From positions 1 through 62,123 of the IMG/VR virus record IMGVR_UViG_3300020190_004289: a DNA stretch of 62,123 nt; one strand, 5' to 3'. The notes below the pieces were generated by a model. It saw nothing but the letters and a program-made list of their open reading frames with translations, searched no databases and was not told the DNA's origin. The stretch's first letter is position 1; each line of letters opens with the position of its first letter. This document shows positions 8,973-61,226 of this stretch, piece after piece. The position numbers and the translations under genes were made by a program. The DNA is from a virus.

Positions 8973-9635
8973 TTGAACTTAAGAGTATTTAATCACATAA
9001 AGCATGATTTTCCAAAACTGGAACGCTCTACCAAGGATGGTGTACGAACTTACAAAACACCATCGGGTAGAGCCTATCCATCCGTCACAACCGTTACATC
9101 TCTGCTTAGCAAAGATTCCATCAAGGAGTGGAGAGAGAAGGTTGGAGCAGAAGAAGCAAATAAAATCACAGCCAACGCCTCTAGAAGAGGAACAAGAATT
9201 CACGGTATATGTGAAGACTATCTCTCAAACGAAACATACACAGTTACTTTTGAAGACAAACAGCTCTGGAAAGACATTAAACCTTTTATTGATAGCATAG
9301 ATAATATACATGCTTTAGAAAGTTCATTGTATTCCGATCATTTAGAAGTAGCTGGAACAGTTGATTGTATTGCTGAGTATGAGGGTGAATTGTCTGTAAT
9401 AGATTTTAAAACTTCTGCTAAGAAAAAAGAAAAGGAATGGATTTCAAACTATTTTATGCAATGCTCTGCTTATGCGGTAGCCTTTGAGGAACTAACTAAA
9501 ATTTCCGTATCGAACATAATTATTATTATGGGTGTAGATCACGAAGGTGGGTTTGTATTCAAAGAATCTAGGGATAATTGGATAGATAAATTTAAGGACC
9601 TTAGAAAGCAGTATAAAGCCGCGTATAACGTATAA
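8973..9635 (+). CDS. PD-(D/E)XK exonuclease (RecB/Cas4/MGME1-like)
   Basis: A 220-residue nuclease. The core motif is visible as an upstream Glu (HALESSLYS), then AGTVDCIAEYEGELSVIDFK with the Asp and the D-x-K pair, and a downstream QCSAYAVAFEE helix. Homologues in T4-like cyanophages are annotated as exonucleases and probably act in recombination or DNA processing. The start is TTG at 8973, overlapping the M15 stop; no in-frame ATG occurs in the first 40 codons, so the TTG is likely real. Confidence 0.82.
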   Translation: MNLRVFNHIKHDFPKLERSTKDGVRTYKTPSGRAYPSVTTVTSLLSKDSIKEWREKVGAEEANKITANASRRGTRIHGICEDYLSNETYTVTFEDKQLWKDIKPFIDSIDNIHALESSLYSDHLEVAGTVDCIAEYEGELSVIDFKTSAKKKEKEWISNYFMQCSAYAVAFEELTKISVSNIIIIMGVDHEGGFVFKESRDNWIDKFKDLRKQYKAAYNV

Positions 9636-9642
9636 AGTAACG

Positions 9643-9671
9643 TTGACATAAATAAATAAATTAGTTATAAT
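9643..9671 (+). promoter_or_regulatory. Consensus sigma70 promoter for tmRNA
   Basis: A perfect TTGACA (9643-9648), 17-base spacer and TATAAT (9666-9671). Transcription should start near 9678, immediately before the tmRNA acceptor piece. It begins 8 bases after the exonuclease gene. Confidence 0.85.
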
Positions 9672-9679
9672 AATAATAT

Positions 9680-9741
9680 GATCGTATGAAGTTTATTGAA
9701 AGGTGTTCTGGACGGGGGTGCGAATCCCCCCACCTCCACCA
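9680..9741 (+). ncRNA. tmRNA acceptor piece (T-arm and CCA end)
   Basis: T-stem GGGGG (9714-9718) pairs with CCCCC (9726-9730) around loop TGCGAAT (9719-9725). The acceptor strand CACCTCC (9731-9737), discriminator A and encoded CCA follow. The loop has G where U55 of the TUC sequence is nearly always found. The 5' boundary is approximate. Confidence 0.85.
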
Positions 9742-9809
9742 AAAGCATATTTGCAGACCGTGCCACTCCTAGTTAAGGTAAGTACTGCAGGACGGAGTAT
9801 GCTTCTGAT
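9742..9809 (+). other. Intervening segment between the tmRNA pieces
   Basis: This 68-base segment folds into a long hairpin: GCATA (9745-9749) with TATGC (9798-9802), and TGCAG (9752-9756) with CTGCA (9785-9789). It holds the CCA end and the coding-piece 5' end close together, as expected for a linker removed by processing. Confidence 0.75.
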
Positions 9810-10121
9810 GGGGGTGAATAGTTTCGACAGGGCAATGAGTAGAGAGATGGACGATCCGGCAATGTGAAAGCCGTAGGGTTGAGACTTCTCGGCCAAAGAA
9901 ACAAAACGTTAAACGCAAACGACGAAAGATTTGCACTGGCTGCCTAAGCGGCATGTCGGAGTTTTTCTGGTTGAACTTGGCAACAGAATCAACCAGATCA
10001 AATTAGTAAGTCTTTGCCTGGTAGCTATCTCCCAAACCATTTAATAGGTTGGCTTAGATAGTTTTGATGGTGACGAGCTGATGTGGAGTAGTTAACTTTT
10101 ATTTAAAACTAAGGAAATAAA

Positions 10122-24888: not shown

Positions 24889-25287
24889 ATGCCTATAAAT
24901 CGAAAAACAAGAGAATATACAGACTTTAACTTACTTTTTACAACAAATCCTGCTACTGGGGATCTTACTAAAAAGTCAGACGAAGAAGCTATTAAAGCGT
25001 CTGTAAGAAACTTAATTCAAACTAAAAATTTTGAACGTCCATTTCATCCAGAAATAGGTTCTCAAATTTATTCGTTGGTTTTTGAAAACTTTTCGCCCGT
25101 AATAGCGCAAGTTATGAAAAAAACTATTTTTGATACCATAGAGAAATTTGAACCTAGAGTAAGTGTAACCGACGTGAGAATACAAGAAAGACCTGATTCT
25201 AACGAGCTTAGTGTTGACATACAATTTTTAATTAATAGCTCCGATAAACTAGTTACTTTAAAAACATCAATTCAAAGAGTACGATAA
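24889..25287 (+). CDS. 25: gp25 baseplate wedge protein
   Basis: A 132-residue homologue of T4 gp25 (132 aa), a lysozyme-like-fold wedge core protein conserved in contractile systems (TssE in T6SS). The motif NFERPFHPEIGSQIYSLVFE carries the EPF-like core, and VTDVRIQERPDSNELSVDIQ ends the fold. ATG 24889 is preferred over the upstream TTG at 24853 because it gives the family length and MPINRKT start. A GATAAATA element ends 5 bases before it. Confidence 0.9.
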   Translation: MPINRKTREYTDFNLLFTTNPATGDLTKKSDEEAIKASVRNLIQTKNFERPFHPEIGSQIYSLVFENFSPVIAQVMKKTIFDTIEKFEPRVSVTDVRIQERPDSNELSVDIQFLINSSDKLVTLKTSIQRVR

Positions 25288-27131
25288 TGGCGAATCTTAG
25301 AATAGCGGAGCTGGATTTTGACACCATCAAGTCAAATCTAAAATCTTTTTTACAATCTCAAAATGAATTTACAGACTTTGATTTTGAAGGGTCTAGTCTT
25401 TCGGTTTTAATTGATCTTTTAGCATATAATACTCACTACAATGCGTATCTTGCAAACATGGTAGTTAACGAGATGTTTTTAGATTCTGCTGTAAAGAGAT
25501 CCTCTGCTGTTTCTCTTGCTAAACAATTGGGATACACGCCCAGATCGATTAGGAGTGCTAGAGCGGTTTTAAACGTTGTGGTTAACAATCCTCCAGGAAA
25601 CCCTGAAACCATTACTTTAGATAGATACACTCCTTTTACTGTTACACTTAATGATACTTCATATACTTTCTATAATCTTTTTCCAATCACTGTTACTAAG
25701 TTATTCAGTGGTGAATATGTTTTTTCAAATTTAGAGGTTGTAGAAGGAACTCCTTTAAGTATTTCCTATGTTGTAGCAAATCCTGGTACTGAAGAAAAAT
25801 TTGAAATACCTTCTCCGACAGTTGACACATCTACCCTCTTAGTTACAGTCCAAAATTCCTCTTCCAATACATCTTCTACAGCTTTTATTATTAGTGACAA
25901 CATAGCAAATGTTTCTTCTAATTCTAGAGTTTATTTTTTAGAAGAAAATCCTTTTGAAAAATATCAAATATATTTTGGAGATGATGTTATAGGTAAAAAG
26001 CTATCAAATGGAAATATTGTAACAATAAGATACCTTTCTTCACAAGGTGGAGCAGCAAATTCTTCCAACTTAACTAATCAACAATTTACCACCACATCAA
26101 TAGCTGGTACGAGTAATGTTATAATATCTACTGTTACTAATCCACATGCAGGCTCTGCTAAGGAAAGCATTGGTTCTATTAAATTCAATGCCCCTAGAAT
26201 GTATTCCACAAAAAATAGAGCAGTAACTTCTACAGATTATGAATCTTTAATTTATTCTAATTTTTTAGATGCCGAATCAGTGTCAGTGTGGGGAGGAGAG
26301 GAAAATGATCCACCATATTACGGTAAAGTTTTAATTTCACTCAAACCCTACGATGGTTATACCATATCTCAAGCTACTAAAGATTATATAATTGAAAATG
26401 TACTTAAAGACAAAAAAGTATTATCTATACAACCAGAATTTATTGATCCTGAATACAATCACGTAAATTTAAAAGTTTATGTTGATTATGATTCTTACTC
26501 AACAACAAAAACCACAAGTCAAATAGAATTTATAGTTAGAAATACAATTCAAACATATTTTGCAAACGAGCTTCAAAAGTTTAATAAAAATTTTAATAAA
26601 TCAACTTTAATTAAACTTTTACTCGAATCAGATTCAGCTATTTCATCTGTAATTATTACAATTAAATTACAGAAAAGATTTAACATTACTTTAAATGCTG
26701 AAAATGCTTTTATTGGAGATGATGTAATTAAATTTCAAAATGCAGTAATTCCTGGATCTATAAACAGTTCTAGATTTTTTATTAACAATTCTAATACTAC
26801 AACTATTTCTAAAATTATTGATATTCCAAATAACAGTCCTCCAGATAATCTTGGATCAGGCACTTTTAGATTAATAAATGCCGAATCAGGTGCAATTCTT
26901 AAACCTAATGTTGGTACAGTTAATTACGGAACTGGTTTAGTTAATATTGATGGTTTTACACCTACTGCTCTTCCTAATAACATTTTTGACTTTAGAATTA
27001 CAGGATCTGTACAGGAAACAAATCATAATATTCAGACAAGCAAAAATGAAATTCTAGTTTTAGATGATAGTTCTAACGACGCTTTTGCTGGATTAGAAGC
27101 TGGTTTAACAGTTTTTGTAACAGCAGTTTAA
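25287..27131 (+). CDS. 6: gp6 baseplate wedge protein
   Basis: A 614-residue homologue of T4 gp6 (660 aa), which forms the continuous inner ring of the baseplate. The N-terminal region DFEGSSLSVLIDLLAYNTHY and SAVSLAKQLGYTPRSIRSAR is diagnostic; RAVTSTDYESLIYSNFLDAE marks the J-like core shared with other contractile baseplates. Shares its first base with gp25. Confidence 0.9.
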   Translation: MANLRIAELDFDTIKSNLKSFLQSQNEFTDFDFEGSSLSVLIDLLAYNTHYNAYLANMVVNEMFLDSAVKRSSAVSLAKQLGYTPRSIRSARAVLNVVVNNPPGNPETITLDRYTPFTVTLNDTSYTFYNLFPITVTKLFSGEYVFSNLEVVEGTPLSISYVVANPGTEEKFEIPSPTVDTSTLLVTVQNSSSNTSSTAFIISDNIANVSSNSRVYFLEENPFEKYQIYFGDDVIGKKLSNGNIVTIRYLSSQGGAANSSNLTNQQFTTTSIAGTSNVIISTVTNPHAGSAKESIGSIKFNAPRMYSTKNRAVTSTDYESLIYSNFLDAESVSVWGGEENDPPYYGKVLISLKPYDGYTISQATKDYIIENVLKDKKVLSIQPEFIDPEYNHVNLKVYVDYDSYSTTKTTSQIEFIVRNTIQTYFANELQKFNKNFNKSTLIKLLLESDSAISSVIITIKLQKRFNITLNAENAFIGDDVIKFQNAVIPGSINSSRFFINNSNTTTISKIIDIPNNSPPDNLGSGTFRLINAESGAILKPNVGTVNYGTGLVNIDGFTPTALPNNIFDFRITGSVQETNHNIQTSKNEILVLDDSSNDAFAGLEAGLTVFVTAV

Positions 27132-51121: not shown

Positions 51122-54052
51122 ATGCCGGATTTTGTACTAGGTAGATTAAAATTTACTTTTAAAGGCCAGTGGCAATCAAACACTGGTTATGTTGCTGATG
51201 ATATTGTTAGATATGGCGGAAGAAGCTATGTCTGTAAAATAAACCACACTTCTTCCCCTGGCAATGGCTTCTATACTGATAATGCTTATGCTAGATGGGA
51301 TATTGTTTCCTCTGGCACAGACTGGAAAGGCGATTGGCAAACTAGCACCTACTACAAAATTGACGATGTTGTTCGCTACGGTGGTACTGTATATGTTGCC
51401 AACACAGGCCATTTATCTAACGCTACCACAGCTTTTGGCTTAGAGCCGGATTATGATAAATGGGTTACTTACAGTGCAAGTCCTTTTTTCGTTGGGAATT
51501 GGTCTGCTAACGTTCGCTATAGAGTAGAAGACGTATTTAAATTTGGTTCCGGTCTTTATCGTGTAACAATTCCTCACTTTTCAAACGCTAATACCTCTTC
51601 CAACGTAACCACCTTCAATACTCACCAAGGTAACGTTTCTATTTTTGTTCCTGGTTTAGAGTTTGAAGATACTTATAATAATGCCACCCAATATCAAACT
51701 GGTGACATCGTTCGTTACGGTGGTTATAACTTCATCGCTATAGATGAGACAGAGGGCAATTTACCAACTGATACAACTTATTGGAGAGTTTTATCTACTG
51801 GCTTTAAACATAGAGGTGATTATAATAACTCTACCGTCTACGAGCCAGGTGATGTTGTAAGATATGGCGCCTCAAGTTATGTCGCCAAGCTTGATTCTAC
51901 TGGTAATCTTCCAACCAACGCCACCTACTGGGATCTTTTAACCAGGGGTCAGATGTGGAAGGATTACTATGCTGCCAACGTAGCTTATAAGCCTGGTGAT
52001 ATCGTTCGCTATGGTGGATTTATCTACGTAGCAAACGTCGATACAGCTGGTAATGCTCCTTCCAATAACACTTTTTGGGATTTGCAACAAACTGGAATTA
52101 GATGGAATAATATTTGGGATTCAAATACCACCTACCAGTTAGGTGATGCTGTAAATTATTCTAATAGTGCATACATTAGTATTGTTTCTGATAATGCCAA
52201 TATTATTCCAGGAGATCCCGGAAGTGAGGTAAGCTGGAGTTTAGCTGCTCAAGGTTCTCAAGATACCTTTACAACTACTTTAGGTGATATAGCATATCGT
52301 GGTAATGTAGGTATGACTCGTCTAGGAATAGGCGCCGTAGGTCAAGTACTTACATCAGACGGTTCTATTCCTTATTGGAAGACTAATTCCAATACCGGTA
52401 ATGTTTATTATGTTGCACCTGAAGGTGTAGACTCAGCTGGATACGGCACTTCATTACACGCTCCATTTGCCTCTATAAAGTATGCTACTCAGCAGGCTGA
52501 CAATAATGCTACCATCTTTGTTAAGTCGGGAGAATATTACGAACAGCTTCCCATTACCGTTAAGTCCAACATGGCTATTGTTGGAGACAATCAACGTACG
52601 GTAATTATTAATCCTAAAGCAGGTTTGAGTGATGATGGTTCAAATACCAACGCTCAATCCACAATGTTCTTAATGTCTGATGGCGCTATTATTAACAAAG
52701 TTACCATGAGGGGCATGACAGGATGGACAGCAAATAATCAAAATGAACAGAACTTAACCTCCACCACACCTAGAGGTGTATTTGTAAGACTCAATCCTGC
52801 TACTCCTATTATTCATAAGAGTCCTTATATTTTAGAAGCTGCAGCCTTTGGTACAGGTGCAATTGGTGCTTTAGTTGATGGATCTGTGCACGGTGCTCTT
52901 GGAAATAAATCAATGGTGTTTCACGGATATACTGTGATTTCTAGTGATGGTATAGGTTACTGGATTAAAGATGGTGGTAGAGCGGAGATTGTATCTTGCT
53001 TTACATATTATTGTAAATTTGGATATGCTACCACTGGTGGTGGTATTATTCGAGCACTAAACGGAAACAACTCTTACGGTAAGTACGGTGTTTACTCTCA
53101 AGGTTTTTTAACCACAGAACAACCAGTAACCGGTAATGTGTATGGGGATTTAATTTCAGGTACATTTACAAACGGTACTTTTGCAGCTGGTAACTTACTT
53201 ACCGGTAATACTACCGGCGCTACAGCTATTATCACCAATCCTCAGATTTCTTCTAATAAACTATACATTAAGTATCTTACTGGATTAAGATTCCAAAATA
53301 ATGAGGATATTAATTCAAATGCAGGTGGTACAGGCAATTTAACTAGCAACGGAAACGTAGCTGGGCAAAATGGCTTTACATTAATGGCCAATGCGTTTAG
53401 TTCTGAGCCTGCACCTGGTAGGTCAATACAATTTAGTGATGATCCAACAAACGCCTATGTTATTCAAAGCGTTTCAGGTACTTTTCTTGGTGCAAACAGT
53501 GTAATGACTATAGTCCTTACACAGGATAAAGCTCTTAGATCATTAGACAACGCTGGATTAATTCTACGTAGAGACTACAGTCAAGCTAGACTTACTGGCC
53601 ATGACTTCTTAAATGTTGGTACAGGAAACGTTATAACTACTAACTACCCCGGTGCCCCCACAACACCTCCTGCCCAGGGTAATGAGGTTGTAGAAGATTT
53701 TCCCGGTCGTGTGTTTTATATTTCGTCAGATCAAGATGGTAACTTCCGTGTGGGGGATTATTTTAGAATTGATCAGGCTACCGGTACAGCAACATTAAAT
53801 GCTTCAGCTTTTAACTTAGCCGGTCTTACATCTTTAAGATTAGGTTCCATTGGTGCTCAGTTAGGTGAGACGATTAACGAGTTCTCTTCTGATGCGACAA
53901 TGGGTGGTAATTCAAACGCTGCTGTACCTACCGAGTATGCTGTTAAGACATATGTAGACAATGGGGATGCAAATGTATTATCGACTGTTAATGCAACTCT
54001 CGCTGGTGGTATATTAAACAGAAGAGATGGATTCTTTTTGGGTGCAATGTAA
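51122..54052 (+). CDS. Tail adhesin with seven carbohydrate-binding-type repeats and a beta-helix
   Basis: A 976-residue protein. Residues 1-380 hold seven repeats of about 50 residues with a W...YxxGDIVRYGGxxYVA core, the pattern of CBM5/12-type carbohydrate-binding modules. Residues about 425-720 look like a right-handed beta-helix of the pectin-lyase type (YYVAPEGVDSAGYGTSLHAP; TIFVKSGEYYEQLPITVKSN; GDNQRTVIINP). The C-terminal part (RVFYISSDQDGNFRVGDYFR; LRLGSIGAQLGETINEFSSD) matches ends of cyanophage tail proteins. Probably recognises surface polysaccharide. Confidence 0.82.
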   Translation: MPDFVLGRLKFTFKGQWQSNTGYVADDIVRYGGRSYVCKINHTSSPGNGFYTDNAYARWDIVSSGTDWKGDWQTSTYYKIDDVVRYGGTVYVANTGHLSNATTAFGLEPDYDKWVTYSASPFFVGNWSANVRYRVEDVFKFGSGLYRVTIPHFSNANTSSNVTTFNTHQGNVSIFVPGLEFEDTYNNATQYQTGDIVRYGGYNFIAIDETEGNLPTDTTYWRVLSTGFKHRGDYNNSTVYEPGDVVRYGASSYVAKLDSTGNLPTNATYWDLLTRGQMWKDYYAANVAYKPGDIVRYGGFIYVANVDTAGNAPSNNTFWDLQQTGIRWNNIWDSNTTYQLGDAVNYSNSAYISIVSDNANIIPGDPGSEVSWSLAAQGSQDTFTTTLGDIAYRGNVGMTRLGIGAVGQVLTSDGSIPYWKTNSNTGNVYYVAPEGVDSAGYGTSLHAPFASIKYATQQADNNATIFVKSGEYYEQLPITVKSNMAIVGDNQRTVIINPKAGLSDDGSNTNAQSTMFLMSDGAIINKVTMRGMTGWTANNQNEQNLTSTTPRGVFVRLNPATPIIHKSPYILEAAAFGTGAIGALVDGSVHGALGNKSMVFHGYTVISSDGIGYWIKDGGRAEIVSCFTYYCKFGYATTGGGIIRALNGNNSYGKYGVYSQGFLTTEQPVTGNVYGDLISGTFTNGTFAAGNLLTGNTTGATAIITNPQISSNKLYIKYLTGLRFQNNEDINSNAGGTGNLTSNGNVAGQNGFTLMANAFSSEPAPGRSIQFSDDPTNAYVIQSVSGTFLGANSVMTIVLTQDKALRSLDNAGLILRRDYSQARLTGHDFLNVGTGNVITTNYPGAPTTPPAQGNEVVEDFPGRVFYISSDQDGNFRVGDYFRIDQATGTATLNASAFNLAGLTSLRLGSIGAQLGETINEFSSDATMGGNSNAAVPTEYAVKTYVDNGDANVLSTVNATLAGGILNRRDGFFLGAM

Positions 54053-54088: not shown

Positions 54089-54424
54089 ATGACTACTGGA
54101 ATTTATGGAAAAGTTAACTTAGCAGCTGCAACAGATACTATTTTAGTTGGTAATACGTCAGTAGATACTGGTAAAACGGCTGTAATTACTATCAACTTTG
54201 TAAATACAAATGCATCTACTAACACAGCTCTTCGAATAGCACTTACTACAGCCAATGCTGCTGGTAACATAGAAGCTGGAGATTTTATTGAATATGATAC
54301 TCCTTTGGGAGGATTAGGTGTTTTGGAAAGAACTGGTATAGTTGTACCAGCCGGTGTTAGTATTAGTGTAAGATCTAGTGCTGCAAACGTGAACGCAATA
54401 GCCTATGGTATAGAGAGCGTATAA
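54089..54424 (+). CDS. Small virion protein at the head of the adhesin block
   Basis: A 111-residue beta-rich protein (ATDTILVGNTSVDTGKTAVI; GIVVPAGVSISVRSSA). The pattern is common in small phage adhesin-associated proteins. Its stop overlaps the first Cys-rich adhesin start. It might be the adaptor for the following adhesins, which is inference from order. Confidence 0.55.
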   Translation: MTTGIYGKVNLAAATDTILVGNTSVDTGKTAVITINFVNTNASTNTALRIALTTANAAGNIEAGDFIEYDTPLGGLGVLERTGIVVPAGVSISVRSSAANVNAIAYGIESV

Positions 54425-55158
54425 TGCCAATCTCAATGTTTTATGACACGACAGGTTCAAATATCATTCCTCACACTTGCTCATATACTGTTCCTGCAGG
54501 AGTTGTTTCAATAACATTTGAAATTTGGGGTGGTGGAGGAGGTTCTGGTCAAGGTTTTTGCGAATGCGATTGTAGACTTCGAACCGGCGGAGGAGCTGGT
54601 GGTGGATATAGTATGATAACTATTCCTGTCACAGCAGGAGATGTCTATACCATGAATATTGGTAATGGTGGTGTTTCATCAGGCGGTTATGGTGGACCAT
54701 CAAACAATAATGGCACCGGCAGAGGATGTTGTGGTGGTACCACATTTATTACAGGCACTGGACTTACAAACTTTTGTGCTGAAGGCGGCGGCGGTGGTTG
54801 TGCAAATATAACATTAGTATGTTATGGCTGTGCATGTTGGTATGATGGAGGTGGCAATGCTTACGGTGGCACAATAAACCAAAAAGGTGGTCCAGCAAGA
54901 CGAGGGAGTATTGGTGGTGGTAGCTGCTGGAATCACTATTCATTGGGTGGCGATGCAGCTGGTCCCGGTGGTGGTAGGGGTGGTTGGAATATGACTCCCC
55001 ATAGCTCTTATGGGTGTGGTAGTAGAGACAGCAATCCTCTTATGGATGGTGTGTTACCTGGTGGAGGTGGAGCTGGACATGGGTGTTCTAATCAGTGTAA
55101 CTGTTGTAATTTCGGTGGTGGAAGAGGCGCGTCAGGATTAATTAAGGTAACGTGGTAA
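54424..55158 (+). CDS. Gly- and Cys-rich tail adhesin, copy 1
   Basis: A 244-residue protein with 17 Cys and very high Gly. It starts with the motif CSYTVPAGVVSITFEIWGGG, known from phage Gly-rich fibre-tip domains, followed by CECDC. FITGTGLTNFCAEGGGGG and a C-terminal CSNQCNCCNFGGGRGASG follow. Gly-rich loops resemble the polyglycine tips of gp38-type adhesins; the Cys density is unusual and could mean disulfides or metal binding. It is followed 3 bases later by a chaperone-like gene, and two paralogues lie downstream. Confidence 0.75.
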   Translation: MPISMFYDTTGSNIIPHTCSYTVPAGVVSITFEIWGGGGGSGQGFCECDCRLRTGGGAGGGYSMITIPVTAGDVYTMNIGNGGVSSGGYGGPSNNNGTGRGCCGGTTFITGTGLTNFCAEGGGGGCANITLVCYGCACWYDGGGNAYGGTINQKGGPARRGSIGGGSCWNHYSLGGDAAGPGGGRGGWNMTPHSSYGCGSRDSNPLMDGVLPGGGGAGHGCSNQCNCCNFGGGRGASGLIKVTW

Positions 55159-55161
55159 AAA

Positions 55162-55437
55162 ATGACAACTACTTATAGAGATTTTTTAAAACAAGTTAGA
55201 AATAATATGCTGGTAGAAACAGATGCCCGCTTAGCTAATGTTGTTGATCCCGTTGAAATTGCAAGATGGGAATTATATCGTCAACAATTAAGAACATTTT
55301 TTGATGATAAGCCCGAGGGGTATGACTTTTTAAATTTTTCATGGCCTGATAATCCCGATAATATCGATTCGCTTAAAGAAAAAGCAAGAGAGGGTGATAC
55401 AGAGGCTATAGAAATACTAAAAAGGAAGGGTTTATAA
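55162..55437 (+). CDS. Tail-assembly-chaperone-like protein, cassette 1
   Basis: A 91-residue protein with the Phage_tail_APC-like pattern: RNNMLVETDARLANVVD, RWELYRQQLRTFFDD and a closing WP motif (NFSWPDNPDN). Proteins of this pattern are usually encoded after a fibre gene and help its folding or attachment. Its stop overlaps the ATG of adhesin copy 2. Confidence 0.75.
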   Translation: MTTTYRDFLKQVRNNMLVETDARLANVVDPVEIARWELYRQQLRTFFDDKPEGYDFLNFSWPDNPDNIDSLKEKAREGDTEAIEILKRKGL

Positions 55438-56204
55438 TGCCGCGCTATATCTACGGAGGTGTTTGTGTAGGGGCCACGGTAGGGTCTATGAGACAATACA
55501 TTACCACTCGCTCCGTCCTTGGCCAAGATAATCACTCCACTGCTTGTACGTCTTGGACAGTTCCAGCTGGAGTTACATGTGTAACCTTTGAATTATGGGG
55601 AGGTGGCGGAGCGGGTACTCCCACATGCTGTTGTATGTGTTTTAATGGTCCTCCGGGAGATGGAGGCGCCTATTCAATGAAAACACTAGCTGTCACTCCG
55701 GGCGATTCGTATACAGTCTGCGTAGGGTGTGGTGGGTGTGGTAATGCTTGCTGGTTTAATGGTAATGCTTGTGGATGTCAAGGAAGAAAAACGTTTATCA
55801 CAGGCACTGGACTTTCAAACTTTTGCGCTGAAGGTGGACAGGGTGGAATATGGTGTAATGCTTCTCCCTGTAATATGTATACCATAGCAAACAGTACTCG
55901 TGCTCAGGCTTATGGGGGAGATATAAATTTACCCGGTACTCCAGGTCAAACCTTTGGGTGTGGTTGGTATCCGGGCTCAAGCAATTGTAGTATTGCTCTC
56001 ACTGGAAGCGCTCCGTTTGGTGGTGGTTATCAGCCTACAATGATGGGTGTAGGCCAATGTCAAGTTCCAAGTTCGTGTGGAGTGACTGGAATATTTCCTG
56101 GAGGAGGCGGTGGTCCAAGAGCTATGATGTCTACATCAATGTGTGACTGCTGTGCAATGTGTGCTGGTGCAGGCTCAGATGGTCTAATAATTATTACAAC
56201 GTAA
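55437..56204 (+). CDS. Gly- and Cys-rich tail adhesin, copy 2
   Basis: A 255-residue paralogue with 24 Cys. The core CTSWTVPAGVTCVTFELWGG is followed by TCCCMC; FITGTGLSNFCAEGGQGG matches copy 1; the end has MCDCCAMCAGAGSDG. The N-terminus (residues 1-35) differs from copy 1, while the Gly-rich body diverges in loops, as expected for receptor-binding variation. Confidence 0.75.
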   Translation: MPRYIYGGVCVGATVGSMRQYITTRSVLGQDNHSTACTSWTVPAGVTCVTFELWGGGGAGTPTCCCMCFNGPPGDGGAYSMKTLAVTPGDSYTVCVGCGGCGNACWFNGNACGCQGRKTFITGTGLSNFCAEGGQGGIWCNASPCNMYTIANSTRAQAYGGDINLPGTPGQTFGCGWYPGSSNCSIALTGSAPFGGGYQPTMMGVGQCQVPSSCGVTGIFPGGGGGPRAMMSTSMCDCCAMCAGAGSDGLIIITT

Positions 56205-56215
56205 TCGGATAAAAA

Positions 56216-56620
56216 ATGAAATATATAGTAATAAAAAAAGATACTGGTAAAATATATGATAATTTTATGTACGAGAATACGTCTGTTCCAATTAACGAAG
56301 AGCAACTTGCTTATGTGCCTTTAACTTCCGAAATGGAAGAAGCGTTAACAAACCACGAAAAAGTTATAGATTATAATCAAACAAAGTTTTTAAATGGCTC
56401 TTGGCAAACAGTATTAGTTGTACCAGAAAAAAACAATATATTAGCAGATAGAACGAGAGATAAAGCTGCTTTTCTCGCAGAAGCTAATAGAAAATTACTT
56501 ATTCCAGATGCATCACCAACTTTTAAATCGCTTGTTCAAAATTATATAGATGAACTGAATGCAATTATACCAACAAACGATGAATTTCAAGGCATTGTCT
56601 GGCCAGTAAAGCCCTGGTAA
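56216..56620 (+). CDS. Tail-assembly-chaperone-like protein, cassette 2
   Basis: A 134-residue protein. An N-terminal domain of about 75 residues (YIVIKKDTGKIYDNFMYENT) resembles the front part of tail fibre assembly proteins; the C-terminal half (FLAEANRKLLIPDASPTFKS, then IVWPVKPW) follows the APC pattern with a diverged helix and WP end. It sits between adhesin copies 2 and 3. Confidence 0.65.
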   Translation: MKYIVIKKDTGKIYDNFMYENTSVPINEEQLAYVPLTSEMEEALTNHEKVIDYNQTKFLNGSWQTVLVVPEKNNILADRTRDKAAFLAEANRKLLIPDASPTFKSLVQNYIDELNAIIPTNDEFQGIVWPVKPW

Positions 56621-56630
56621 GGAAAAAAAT

Positions 56631-57461
56631 ATGGCAAGGTTTACTTCAGAAGCTTTAACTAAATCGATAAGTAGTAGAGGAAGCAGAAGCAATGTAATTA
56701 CTAATGCTACTTGTACGTTCACCGTTCCATCAGGCGTATCATGTATATCATTCGAATTGTGGGGTGCAGGAGGTTCGGGTGGTGCAAGATGTTGTTGTGA
56801 TTGTTATCATCAGGGTGCAGGCGGAGCAGCTGCTGGATATGCAGCTATGACTATTCCTACTTCTGCTGGAACTAATTATTCGATACAGGTAGGTAGAAAT
56901 CAACATAGAGAAACTTATGGGTGTTCTCATCCTTTATGTTGTGGGGATGGGGGTCAATGTACTTGTGTAACTGGAACAAACATAACATGTCTCAATGCTG
57001 GGTGTGGAATGACAGGAAATAATGACTGTCTCACATACTGCAATTGTAGTAACTGTTGCTTTGGTCATGCACCTTCTCATACAAGTGGAGCAACGACTTC
57101 ATCAACAGCATTTTCGGCTGCGAGTAATAGAGGTTCAATACACAACTGGATAGATAATGGTGGATTTCAAGGAACTTCCTGTAGAAATTCAGGTGGTTAT
57201 GTGGGAATGGGTACAGACTCTCAAGCTTGGGGTCAAACTTACGTAACATCAGCTGGTGGACCTCCTTTCAGACACGGTATATTTGAACAATCTTTAAATT
57301 GTAAGACCTATTATTATAATTTTAGTGCTTACCCATCTGGATCTGGAGGTACACATTGCCAGTGGTTTGGTACTGCAGGTGTAGGTACTATTGCGGAAAC
57401 ATGTTGCATGTGTGCATATGCTCCAACAGGTCAGCATGGTGTAGTAATCGTTAGATATTAA
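56631..57461 (+). CDS. Gly- and Cys-rich tail adhesin, copy 3
   Basis: A 276-residue paralogue with 24 Cys. CTFTVPSGVSCISFELWGAG is followed by RCCCDC; the middle has CTCVTGTNITCLNAGCG and CNCSNCC; the end is CCMCAYAPTGQHGVVIVRY. It is the most diverged of the three and less Gly-rich. An RBS-like AAGGAAAAAA precedes the start. Confidence 0.75.
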   Translation: MARFTSEALTKSISSRGSRSNVITNATCTFTVPSGVSCISFELWGAGGSGGARCCCDCYHQGAGGAAAGYAAMTIPTSAGTNYSIQVGRNQHRETYGCSHPLCCGDGGQCTCVTGTNITCLNAGCGMTGNNDCLTYCNCSNCCFGHAPSHTSGATTSSTAFSAASNRGSIHNWIDNGGFQGTSCRNSGGYVGMGTDSQAWGQTYVTSAGGPPFRHGIFEQSLNCKTYYYNFSAYPSGSGGTHCQWFGTAGVGTIAETCCMCAYAPTGQHGVVIVRY

Positions 57462-57472
57462 TTGGATAAAAA

Positions 57473-57775
57473 ATGACAGATAATACAGTTATTCCTCAAG
57501 ATAGAAATTTAACAGAGGAAGATTTTGCGCAGTTAAAAAGAGTACGTAATAATTTTCTTACATCTACAGACAGTTATATGTTAATGAACGATCTTCCTGA
57601 TTCTTTATTGGAGAAAATAACTTCTTATAGGAATACAATTCGTAATATTGATTCAAAGTTTGGTACCGAGTGGGTAAAAGAAAGTGATATTGAGTGGCCA
57701 GACATTCCCACTGAACTGATTACTAAACACACAGTTCCGTTTGTTCCTCCACCTGGATCAACAGTAGAAGTATAA
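57473..57775 (+). CDS. Tail-assembly-chaperone-like protein, cassette 3
   Basis: A 100-residue protein with the APC pattern: LKRVRNNFLTSTDSYMLMND, ITSYRNTIRNI and a WP motif (DIEWPDIPTE), then a Pro-rich tail. It is the last rightward gene before the convergent terminator. Confidence 0.75.
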   Translation: MTDNTVIPQDRNLTEEDFAQLKRVRNNFLTSTDSYMLMNDLPDSLLEKITSYRNTIRNIDSKFGTEWVKESDIEWPDIPTELITKHTVPFVPPPGSTVEV

Positions 57776-57798
57776 AAAAAGGGGCTTTATAGCCCCTT
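57774..57798 (-). terminator. Terminator between convergent units
   Basis: GGGGCT (57781-57786) pairs with AGCCCC (57791-57796) around TTAT. On the minus strand a run of seven T follows, so it best fits the leftward operon; the rightward adhesin operon may use the same stem. The minus-strand stop codon lies in the loop. Confidence 0.8.
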
Positions 57799-58521
57799 CA
57801 TTGTTTTTGGATCGTCTAATAATACATGAGGACGCCATGGATTATGTTGCATTGTTATTGGTAAAACTATATCTACGGCAATACTAATTCGTGTCTTTTC
57901 TGTCTTATCGCTGTAATGTCTAATCCAGCTTGGAAAAAATATCAATCTACTTTCCTTTGTTTCGATATGAAATTCCATCTCCCTCTCCCCCTGAATCCCA
58001 AAGGGATGTACAATCCTTAAACACGAATTATCTGATTGAGGATAGTAAGTTCCAGCAAGGTATGCATTATTATTAGCAACATGGCAGTGGCTGCTAATAA
58101 ATTCCCCAGGTCTTAGAACATTTGCCCAGCAATGGGCATAGACTTTTACTCTAGGTGCTTTTATGTCAGATAAAAAAAGTAAGTAATTTTCTCTAAATTT
58201 CTTAAAAAGTTCATCTTGTATAGGGTTAGGTTTAAACTTCACAAGATGATCGCCCTCTAACCTTGGACCAGTGTCGTCAAATAAATTGTGTTGTTTCCAT
58301 TGTTGTGTAAACTTGTAAGGATCACTATCATTTTTTGATATTGGACTTACCAATTCTTCTTCCCGAAGGATTTGTTCACATTCTAAAACGTATTCTATTA
58401 GCCTCTTATTAAATTCTGATGTTCCATCTTGTGAACAATAAATCGGGGCATTAATATCCAATGCAAAGACTGAATTGGCTTTACCTTCATTTCCATTCCA
58501 AATTATAGTACGTTTACTCAT
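57787..58521 (-). CDS. 2OG-Fe(II) oxygenase-like protein
   Basis: A 244-residue protein of the TIGR02466-like family seen in T4-like marine phages. A beta-helix core is suggested by SSHCHVANNNAYLAGTYYPQ with candidate His ligands, then SRLIFFPSWIRHYS with the distal His and TRISIAVDI with the Arg that binds 2-oxoglutarate. Substrate unknown. It is the last gene of the leftward glycan-type operon and overlaps the carbamoyltransferase gene by 8 bases, so action on the same product is plausible. Confidence 0.75.
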   Translation of the reverse strand: MSKRTIIWNGNEGKANSVFALDINAPIYCSQDGTSEFNKRLIEYVLECEQILREEELVSPISKNDSDPYKFTQQWKQHNLFDDTGPRLEGDHLVKFKPNPIQDELFKKFRENYLLFLSDIKAPRVKVYAHCWANVLRPGEFISSHCHVANNNAYLAGTYYPQSDNSCLRIVHPFGIQGEREMEFHIETKESRLIFFPSWIRHYSDKTEKTRISIAVDIVLPITMQHNPWRPHVLLDDPKTMKGL

Positions 58522-60271
58522 CTGTTTTGTTGGGAACTTTAATTAGTTTACTTATTTCTGGTAAGTAGAGATACTCTATATCAGAACGCCTTAAAGTATC
58601 AAGAGCATCATCTATTGTTTCAACAAGTGGATCTCCACCAAGATTAAATGATGTATTAAATAGTATTGGAACATTAGTTAATTTATAAAATTCTTCTATC
58701 AAAGCATAGTAATGTTCATTTTGCTCTTTTGTGACTGTCTGAATTCTGCACGATTTATCTACGTGAATAATTGAAGGTATTTTTTCTTCTACACCTGATT
58801 TACAATTTACAGCGTACATCATAAATGGACTTTCTTCTAAGCCCCTTAAATCAAACCAATCATGCACATACTCTTTTAATATTGTTCCAGCAAAAGGTCT
58901 AAACCATTCACGTTTCTTTACGCCATTAACTATATCTTTACCGTTAACAACAGTCGGATCAAATAATATACTTCTGTTACCAAGAGCTCTTGGACCTCCT
59001 TCAGAACCACCTTGATAAAGCGCTACAATATTTTCTTCTCGAATTAATTTTGCTACATCAGCTGGAGATACATCCGACATTGATTCGTTATTTTGAAGCA
59101 AAATATCATATGAACCTTTTTCTGCAAAATAATTTGGTCCATAGTAAATGTGTTTTGTTTTACGAATGATGTTATCCTCACAAAGAGTGTGGTGTGCAAG
59201 TTTTGCAGCACCTATACAAGTACCTCCATCGTGACTGATGGGTTCGTTGTATATTTTAACTCCCTCCGGGAGATGAGCAAGGTATTCATAATTTGCTACA
59301 CAATTTAATCCATAACCTCCCGCTACTACAATATTCTTACAGCCTGTCACTTCAATAGCTTTAAGAATAAGTCTTAATACTTCTTTCTGTGTGGCTTGCT
59401 GTACTGCATAGGCGAGATTTTTTTGAACTGTAAGATTGTCTGTATCTAAGTACGGATACATCACTCTATCAATATGTGCACCATTTGGATAATTAGGAAC
59501 AAATAGGTTACGATTGCTGAAATAACGTCCTTCCTTACCGTGAAATATAAAAGGTATGTTTGGGTCTTCCTCACCATAAGAAGCAAGACCCATGGCCTTA
59601 CCTGCCTCTATAAAAGGAAACCCACAATAATCTGTCATCGCTTCATAACATTTTGTAATACCAGGTTTATCAGAAAAAATAACATCATGTAAAACATCTT
59701 CACGCCCACGGTGAGAATGAGGTACTTGAATTTTTTCAAATGCAAGTTGAGGACCTCGTAAACCAATATGTTTGTATTTTGTCATAATGTTGGCTGGATA
59801 CTGAGCATGAAAAATACTCTCTAATTCCCAACCTATAGCATTTTCACCTAACGGAACAAAAGTACCTGCACCATCAACAATAACACAAGCTGCCTCTTCA
59901 AATCCCGAATTATAGAAAGCACAAGCTGCGTGCAGTTCGTGGTGTATCATTCCGTAATCTTTTACTTGGGGATGTTCTCTTCCGCTAAAACGTTGATCTA
60001 TGAGACCAATTTTACGAGCAAAACCAGTGTACATATCATCACCAGTAAAATCAATTTTACCAGCAGCTTCAAGGGGTTGAGTGTGTGCAACAGCTAGATA
60101 ATCTAGTTTGTCTGTATATTCCTTAATTTTTAACATGCCAGCTAAAGGACCACCGTCATATTTCTTTTTACTAAGTCTTTCTTCTTCGAGATAAAATACT
60201 ATTTCACCATCTTTAAGAAGGCATGTTGCACCATTGTGACCACGAGTAATACCTGCTATCCACACCGACAT
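58514..60271 (-). CDS. Carbamoyltransferase (NodU/CmcH/TobZ family)
   Basis: A 585-residue enzyme that transfers a carbamoyl group from carbamoyl phosphate, via carbamoyl-AMP, to a sugar or antibiotic hydroxyl. The N-terminal Kae1-like domain starts SVWIAGITRGHNGATCLLKD and has the metal motif HHELHAACAF; the C-terminal part holds GGPRALGNRSILFDP. The start is placed at ATG 60271, preceded by GGAG; an upstream in-frame TTG at 60283 overlaps that site. Suggests carbamoylation of a surface glycan or small sugar. Confidence 0.9.
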   Translation of the reverse strand: MSVWIAGITRGHNGATCLLKDGEIVFYLEEERLSKKKYDGGPLAGMLKIKEYTDKLDYLAVAHTQPLEAAGKIDFTGDDMYTGFARKIGLIDQRFSGREHPQVKDYGMIHHELHAACAFYNSGFEEAACVIVDGAGTFVPLGENAIGWELESIFHAQYPANIMTKYKHIGLRGPQLAFEKIQVPHSHRGREDVLHDVIFSDKPGITKCYEAMTDYCGFPFIEAGKAMGLASYGEEDPNIPFIFHGKEGRYFSNRNLFVPNYPNGAHIDRVMYPYLDTDNLTVQKNLAYAVQQATQKEVLRLILKAIEVTGCKNIVVAGGYGLNCVANYEYLAHLPEGVKIYNEPISHDGGTCIGAAKLAHHTLCEDNIIRKTKHIYYGPNYFAEKGSYDILLQNNESMSDVSPADVAKLIREENIVALYQGGSEGGPRALGNRSILFDPTVVNGKDIVNGVKKREWFRPFAGTILKEYVHDWFDLRGLEESPFMMYAVNCKSGVEEKIPSIIHVDKSCRIQTVTKEQNEHYYALIEEFYKLTNVPILFNTSFNLGGDPLVETIDDALDTLRRSDIEYLYLPEISKLIKVPNKTDE

Positions 60272-60272
60272 A

Positions 60273-61226
60273 CTATTCTCCAACTTTCTGTTTAATATCC
60301 GATAAAATATTTTTTATAATTTTATCTTCTTCTTCTTCGTTAAAATTCATACAACTATCGTTTATTCTATTTGATTCAACACACGCTAATTCACTTATGC
60401 GAATAGGATCATAGCGCTTTTGAATACCTTCTTTTTCGATGATGTTAAAAAATCCAGGGTAAGATACATTTATAGCAAACGTTGAGCCAAGTATAACAGT
60501 ACCTGGTATTTCATAACCTCTTGCTATATGTTGGCCCACACTATCACAACCTATAAAATAATCACATTGTTCAATAACACCAGCCCACTTTCTTAAAGTG
60601 ATGTCTTTGGGAGCAAGAGTAATATTATCTCCATAAATTTCAAATTCACTCATTGATATAAGATTGTAGTGTTCCTTAAGTGTGTTAACAATTTTTAAAT
60701 ATGTTGATAATTCAATACTTCGACTACCGTGGTCTACACATAAGCTTAAATTGTCATCTTTAATTACACCACGACCAAAAGGCTGAATAACAATTGTTTT
60801 TTCTTTACCGTGTTTTTCTTTAGCTGCCTTGGTAATTGCTAGACCGTAAAGCTCCTCCTCTTTATTGAGAGTAAGTTTTACTTTATAATTTTCAGCAGGT
60901 TCATAAGAACCATTTATTTGTTTATCGAACGCTTGAGCTAAACTGATTTTTTGATTATAATATTCCCATTCACGATAAGGTTCGGTGGTAATTATTTCCC
61001 CATTACGAATAATATTTTCAAATATACCTTTGGAGTTTGACTCAAATGTGCGGTCTTGTAGTAATTTATTTCCTAATACAAAATCCATACCTCCCTCGGT
61101 AATAATATAACTTTCGGGATTATTTCTAATAAATTTTTCTAAAGCTGGAAGTGAGCATATCATTCGTCCAGCACCACCGTTTACGAAAATACATTTATAC
61201 ATAGCCGTTCCATTACCTTTTGTCAT
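60273..61226 (-). CDS. Glycosyltransferase family 9-like protein
   Basis: A 317-residue protein with the layout of ADP-heptose:LPS heptosyltransferases: an N-terminal Rossmann start (YKCIFVNGGAGRMICSLPAL), a central TIVIQPFG and the C-terminal donor-site pattern CDYFIGCDSVGQHIARGYEI. Substrate not readable from sequence. An alternative start is ATG 61202 (MYKCIF). Next to a HAD phosphatase, as in heptose pathways. Confidence 0.75.
   Translation of the reverse strand: MTKGNGTAMYKCIFVNGGAGRMICSLPALEKFIRNNPESYIITEGGMDFVLGNKLLQDRTFESNSKGIFENIIRNGEIITTEPYREWEYYNQKISLAQAFDKQINGSYEPAENYKVKLTLNKEEELYGLAITKAAKEKHGKEKTIVIQPFGRGVIKDDNLSLCVDHGSRSIELSTYLKIVNTLKEHYNLISMSEFEIYGDNITLAPKDITLRKWAGVIEQCDYFIGCDSVGQHIARGYEIPGTVILGSTFAINVSYPGFFNIIEKEGIQKRYDPIRISELACVESNRINDSCMNFNEEEEDKIIKNILSDIKQKVGE

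Follow-up and report, generated by a model that had tools for sequence, protein, structure and literature searches.

What is the role of three tandem genes for glycine- and cysteine-rich adhesins, each followed by a small gene of its own, behind a tail fibre gene of a T4-like virus? The question is raised by the 62,123-base virus record IMGVR_UViG_3300020190_004289, which comes from a metagenome and is called the window here at its full length. Fibre tips decide which bacteria a phage infects, and our analysis makes it probable that these genes form a module, exchangeable between phages, for the host-recognition tip of a T4-like myovirus, in which three adhesins and their chaperones act together. 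The six open reading frames (ORFs) have the place, order and plus-strand orientation given in a preliminary description of the locus (Table 1). A small ORF lies behind every adhesin after a gap of 4-12 bases, and gene order is the same in relatives. The cassette stands directly behind a phrog_9851 tail fibre, and this synteny is kept in cyanophages.

Evidence on the nature of the adhesins was obtained from family profiles and from a structural model. In adhesins 1, 2 and 3 (slots 1, 2 and 3) almost the entire sequence is covered by matches to PF21722 (Gly_rich_2), which score 42.3, 46.6 and 36.3 bits, all above the curated cut-off of 24.3, and 50 of 74 relatives match the same family at E <= 0.001. 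The three also match phrog_4205, to which no function is assigned. By these profiles the three ORFs are paralogous Gly_rich_2 proteins. They have in common the core TVP(A/S)GV-x4-FE(I/L)WG, which the preliminary description had recognised in all three with a spacing of x3 instead of x4. The fold, a beta-sandwich with a lattice of glycine-rich loops, was examined in monomer models of adhesin 2. The AlphaFold model, built on an alignment of 74 window and related sequences, has a predicted local distance difference test score of 77.4 and a predicted template modelling (pTM) score of 0.82. Its best Foldseek match in the PDB is the fibre of cyanophage Pam3 (7ypx_A, E 1e-7, template modelling score 0.51), followed by the Bxb1 tail tip and then the ALK glycine-rich domain; in BFVD it matches S-CAM3, P-SSM2 and Gp38 of syn9. 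A phmmer search of adhesin 1 against the PDB gave nothing meaningful. In L011-L017 and the window, adhesins of slots 2 and 3 start with M(G/A/P)R(Y/F) and those of slot 1 with MP-I/V or M-A/S-G, so the slots may attach differently.

The small proteins had been proposed to carry the Phage_tail_APC pattern. Taken alone, the window proteins give weak matches, since PF16778 finds proteins 1 and 3 below its curated cut-off and leaves protein 2 unmatched; the link is secured through longer same-slot orthologues in related phages. L011-L016, the loci nearest to the window, encode small proteins with one orthologue per slot; these measure 93-169 residues and have slot-specific C-termini. PF16778 matches 14 of the 22 aligned members (E <= 0.01; best 2.6e-10, above the cut-off), phrog_4912 (tail fiber assembly) also matches 14 of the 22, and the slot-3 orthologue of L015 clears the PF16778 cut-off with 40.4 against 26.6 bits. 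Judged through these relatives, the small proteins are probably slot-specific tail-fibre-assembly chaperones, which agrees with the relation to such chaperones that the preliminary description presupposed. The N-terminal beta-sandwich domain, which binds the client, is absent from the window proteins of slots 1 and 3 (91 and 100 residues), while the longer orthologues have an N-terminal part; these two proteins are thus reduced to the helical half. A profile match to 2kz6 (2.6e-6) was obtained in a comparison with solved chaperone folds. BLAST against phage records gave no match for small proteins 2 and 3, and phmmer against the PDB gave nothing meaningful for small protein 3.

Further information came from a contig, L008, that shares the backbone of the window. 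They agree at 99.3% identity for 11.8 kb, and this similarity ends at window base 53943, which lies in codon 941 of the fibre gene (976 codons). The switch falls within an AVPTEYAV-K/R-TYV stretch of the fibre C-terminus, and beyond it L008 is wholly different, with another fibre end, a 329-residue adhesin (32 cysteines), a 223-residue protein at the place of the chaperone and another adhesin that is truncated where the contig stops. From this alignment we conclude that the pair probably records one natural swap of the whole adhesin/chaperone module on one backbone. It is improbable that the switch is an assembly chimera and the cassette is not naturally exchanged: L008 is a single contig, ending 2.7 kb past the switch, but the sequence changes at a fibre motif that is conserved, does so without interrupting the fibre frame, and continues with an adhesin, a chaperone and an adhesin in syntenic order. 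In other loci, too, the adhesins diverge independently of the fibre C-terminus. An exact-sequence search for more contigs of this backbone recovered the L008 contig only. A host-recognition cluster in this genome region has already been described for cyano- and pelagimyophages (PMC7029224).

The proposal of receptor-binding tips with dedicated chaperones, already made in the preliminary description, is thus supported by family profiles, the fold match to Pam3, slot-specific chaperone orthologues and the replacement of the entire module in nature. Receptor binding is suggested by place, fold and cassette exchange. We hypothesize that three anciently diverged, cysteine-rich adhesins of the glycine-rich fold make up the distal tip of the fibre, and that the chaperone encoded directly behind each adhesin folds and trimerises it. 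The chaperones would be shed before maturation, by analogy to gp25 of Pam3, and loops beyond the glycine-rich rods would touch the host. The conserved cysteines would make these loops rigid, most likely by disulfides that arise when the virion has left the reducing cytoplasm. The adhesins would function as a set of three, and phages would exchange the module as a whole.

Triplication and divergence, the origin first suggested for the trio, is borne out, but it is old, as slot orthologues cluster across phages. In the clade of the window, slots 1, 2 and 3 each form one group, with support of 99, 82 and 99 in the Shimodaira-Hasegawa-like approximate likelihood ratio test (SH-aLRT). In other clades the slots cluster within the clade and do not join the window slots; therefore triplication was repeated, or the copies were homogenised, within lineages. 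Ratios of nonsynonymous to synonymous substitution are 0.05-0.47 in all slots in close pairs among relatives, and nearly all cysteines are kept, which indicates purifying selection on every slot. A recent duplication with spare copies, redundant or decaying, would fit tandem paralogues in one direction, but is rejected as scarcely credible in view of the old, separate slot lineages in the window clade and the purifying selection in relatives.

Since a search of viral contigs with window adhesin 2 alone gave no matches, an alignment was needed to find relatives. The alignment search of IMG/VR found 499, and the best 78 loci of these were fetched. Together with cultured cyanophages and the window they provide 82 complete loci, of which 63 have three adhesins, 18 have two and one has four. 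A second sample, seeded on the neighbouring carbamoyltransferase, holds 61 complete sets, with exactly three adhesins in 55, three with the third split in one, five in one, two in one and a single adhesin in three; four further loci are truncated by the edge of the contig, and 15 are without adhesins, partly owing to short flanks. As some contigs are near-duplicates, the locus counts are not independent. Cultured Synechococcus and Prochlorococcus phages carry two or three tandem homologues with 24-36 cysteines at the same place, annotated as hypothetical. A cassette unique to this contig is ruled out by the relatives in IMG/VR and cyanophages, and "exactly three" as a universal rule by the loci with other adhesin numbers. 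The largest arrays hold five to six tandem cysteine-rich ORFs (L021, 651-6503; L143, 121-6219). L155, L169 and L170 have a single cysteine-rich adhesin, and in L155 and L170 a protein of 256-259 residues occupies the chaperone position.

Do the three adhesins work together or apart? Comparison of 50 non-redundant loci with three adhesins gives a correlation of 0.96 between the slots in pairwise identity, the largest slot-to-slot identity gap is 0.15, and none of 1225 locus pairs shows replacement of a single slot. For identity of the trio, the correlation is 0.76 with the 60 C-terminal fibre residues, 0.88 with the FINGGAGR protein encoded downstream and 0.97 with the last of the chaperones. 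The slot correlation supports joint assembly without proving it, because physical linkage contributes. It is tempting to propose that the tip is an obligate heteromer (A-B-C) of the paralogues in which three slot-specific chaperones set the order, and that it is stapled by disulfides or metal and inherited and exchanged as a unit across aquatic T4-like phages, a proposal that we make tentatively. If true, it would break the usual picture of homotrimeric tips and explain the joint retention of three genes. There is a nearly even chance that each adhesin instead trimerises with itself alone, served by its own chaperone, the virion bearing a mixture of three tips for different receptors. Gp24 of Pam3 is a homotrimer with one chaperone (PMC9608196), single-adhesin loci exist, and the dedicated chaperones of the window clade would suit separate assembly; against such independence stand the lack of single-slot replacement and the exactly three adhesins in 55 of 61 complete sets, both of which linkage alone could explain in part. 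Strict co-inheritance of the slots thus argues against freely exchangeable alternatives and does not prove hetero-assembly.

The cysteine counts of the adhesins (Table 1), reported before, are correct, and the clusters CCCMC, CECDC and CNCCN are all present. Cysteine makes up 7.0, 9.4 and 8.7% of adhesins 1, 2 and 3; its scarcity elsewhere holds, with 0-4% in the other window ORFs of at least 100 residues and 0-3 cysteines in other tail fibres of 159-1895 residues. Between slot orthologues, cysteines are retained at 0.66-0.72 in the window clade and 0.91-0.94 in two well-sampled clades, against 0.40-0.70 for all residues (0.62-0.70 in the two well-sampled clades), and cysteine ranks first or second in conservation in all slot alignments of the clades examined. 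The 188 adhesins compared have 27 cysteines on average (9.7%), and CC, CxC and CxxC spacings are enriched 1.9-, 1.3- and 1.3-fold. The cysteines are under selection, and conservation and spacing agree with disulfides and with metal binding alike. Disulfides are favoured because tips probably work outside the cell. This unusual content provides a testable claim on how the virus stabilises its tip after lysis.

Some observations weigh against parts of the proposed module. Parity, taken as a disulfide test, gave no signal: even cysteine counts are found in 38% of trios and in 48% of chains, so not all cysteines can be paired within one chain. Histidine is mildly enriched beside cysteine (0.035 versus 0.021). 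Together with the enriched spacings and the assembly of phages in a reducing cytoplasm, these data would suit cysteines that bind zinc, iron or copper in a tip that is metal-stabilised or metal-sensing rather than disulfide-bonded. We consider this unlikely, as we recognised no conserved cysteine/histidine arrangement typical of known metal sites, and the profile scan matched no metal-protein family. The fold does not require three adhesins, since other loci have one, two or five to six. Finally, Foldseek with the model of the L015 slot-3 chaperone found nothing significant (best 2kz6, E 0.33).

The surroundings of the cassette are also listed in Table 1. The 111-residue protein ahead of the adhesins has an LERTGI motif and precedes adhesins in many related loci; L008 has no counterpart beyond the switch. 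On the minus strand (57787-61226) a 2OG-Fe(II) oxygenase, a Nol-like carbamoyltransferase and the FINGGAGR protein (phrog_8954) adjoin the cassette, with similar genes in L002-L006; a possible role is modification of sugars on the host surface, or of the tips. Elsewhere in the window (9629-10038, plus strand) lies a permuted transfer-messenger RNA of betaproteobacterial type (RF04321, 135 bits; RF01850, 104 bits; tag ANDERFALAA), which suggests a betaproteobacterial rather than a cyanobacterial host. The baseplate wedge protein (25287-27131, phrog_219) is nearest to those of Methylophilales phage Melnitz and Pelagibacter phage HTVC008M at 38-40% identity, so the T4-like lineage is distant from cultured phages.

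Table 1. Features of the probable tip cassette and its neighbours, in window coordinates.
Feature	Position	Strand	Evidence
Tail fibre, 976 residues, CBM_5_12-type repeats; presumed stem bearing the tip cassette	51122..54052	+	phrog_9851 tail fiber 1.8e-265; PF02839 in 7 stretches
Exchange point in fibre C-terminus, between AVPTEYAV and K/R-TYV	53935..53945	+	99.3% identity with L008 up to 53943, none beyond
Cysteine-free small protein, 111 residues, found in most related loci between the fibre and the adhesins; possible connector	54089..54424	+	Cyanophage homologues at same place, E 5e-9; phrog_11338 tail fiber 3e-5
Adhesin, slot 1, 244 residues, 17 cysteines, 28% glycine	54424..55158	+	PF21722 1.2e-10; slot-1 clade SH-aLRT 99
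Predicted chaperone, slot 1, 91 residues, helical half only	55162..55437	+	PF16778 9e-5 (below cut-off); L015/L016 orthologues of 166-169 residues with N-terminal domain
Adhesin, slot 2, 255 residues, 24 cysteines	55437..56204	+	PF21722 5.4e-12; AlphaFold2 pTM 0.82; Foldseek 7ypx_A 1e-7
Predicted chaperone, slot 2, 134 residues, short N-terminal and helical part	56216..56620	+	Slot-2 orthologues in L011-L016; phrog_8951 7e-4; no Pfam match of its own
Adhesin, slot 3, 276 residues, 24 cysteines	56631..57461	+	PF21722 7.9e-9; slot-3 clade SH-aLRT 99
Predicted chaperone, slot 3, 100 residues, helical half only, N-terminal domain lost relative to orthologues of 156-169 residues	57473..57775	+	phrog_4912 tail fiber assembly 3.4e-8; PF16778 1.9e-5 (below cut-off)
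2-oxoglutarate (2OG)-Fe(II) oxygenase, neighbour in host-recognition region	57787..58521	-	PF13759 5.6e-9; phrog_81 1.4e-24
Nol-like carbamoyltransferase, flanks the cassette in related loci	58514..60283	-	Same gene annotated beside the cassette in cyanophages

The preliminary description knew of no described system like this one, a view that the comparison does not support: a glycine-rich tip with its chaperone has been solved in Pam3, and unannotated cysteine-rich tandem homologues exist in S-CAM1, S-CAM3, S-SSM7, P-SSM2 and Sf-FS3. In the open-access literature we found no description of cysteine-rich or multi-paralogue phage tips, most subscription journals lying outside this coverage. Our results point towards a tip type that is widespread in aquatic T4-like phages under the label "hypothetical protein", and supply it with a fold, a chaperone logic and a natural swap point.

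Among known systems, gp38, the tip of the long tail fibre in S16 and T4-like phages, is similarly a glycine-rich distal adhesin, and syn9 Gp38 is among the BFVD matches; S16 gp38 is not among the PDB matches listed for the adhesin 2 model. Gp38 is a single-gene adhesin that is not known to have such cysteine content. The glycine-rich domain of ALK/LTK, from an animal receptor, is a weaker fold match (E 4e-4) and represents remote structural similarity only. The Kyanoviridae S-CAM1, S-CAM3, S-SSM7 and P-SSM2 and phage Sf-FS3 carry tandem adhesins (two or three, 24-36 cysteines) behind the same tail fibre; an APC-like protein and carbamoyltransferase lie downstream. They have one chaperone-like protein of 220-267 residues per set, whereas the window has one small chaperone per adhesin. 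In Pam3, the fibre gp24 has a glycine-rich distal tip and was solved as a homotrimer with one chaperone (PDB 7YPX, PMC9608196). Its chaperone gp25 has a variable N-terminal and a conserved helical C-terminal domain, and mass spectrometry of the virion found the fibre and not gp25 (PMC9608196). The window cassette resembles this pair in its glycine-rich distal domain on a beta-sandwich, in its predicted dedicated chaperones of tail-fibre-assembly type and in the best fold match of adhesin 2. Unlike Pam3, with one adhesin and one chaperone, it has three paralogues of 7-9% cysteine and three predicted chaperones, two of them reduced to the helical half, and its adhesins are without the long N-terminal helix. 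In summary, the cassette extends the Pam3-type pair, and what is new is a set of three cysteine-rich paralogues with their own chaperones.

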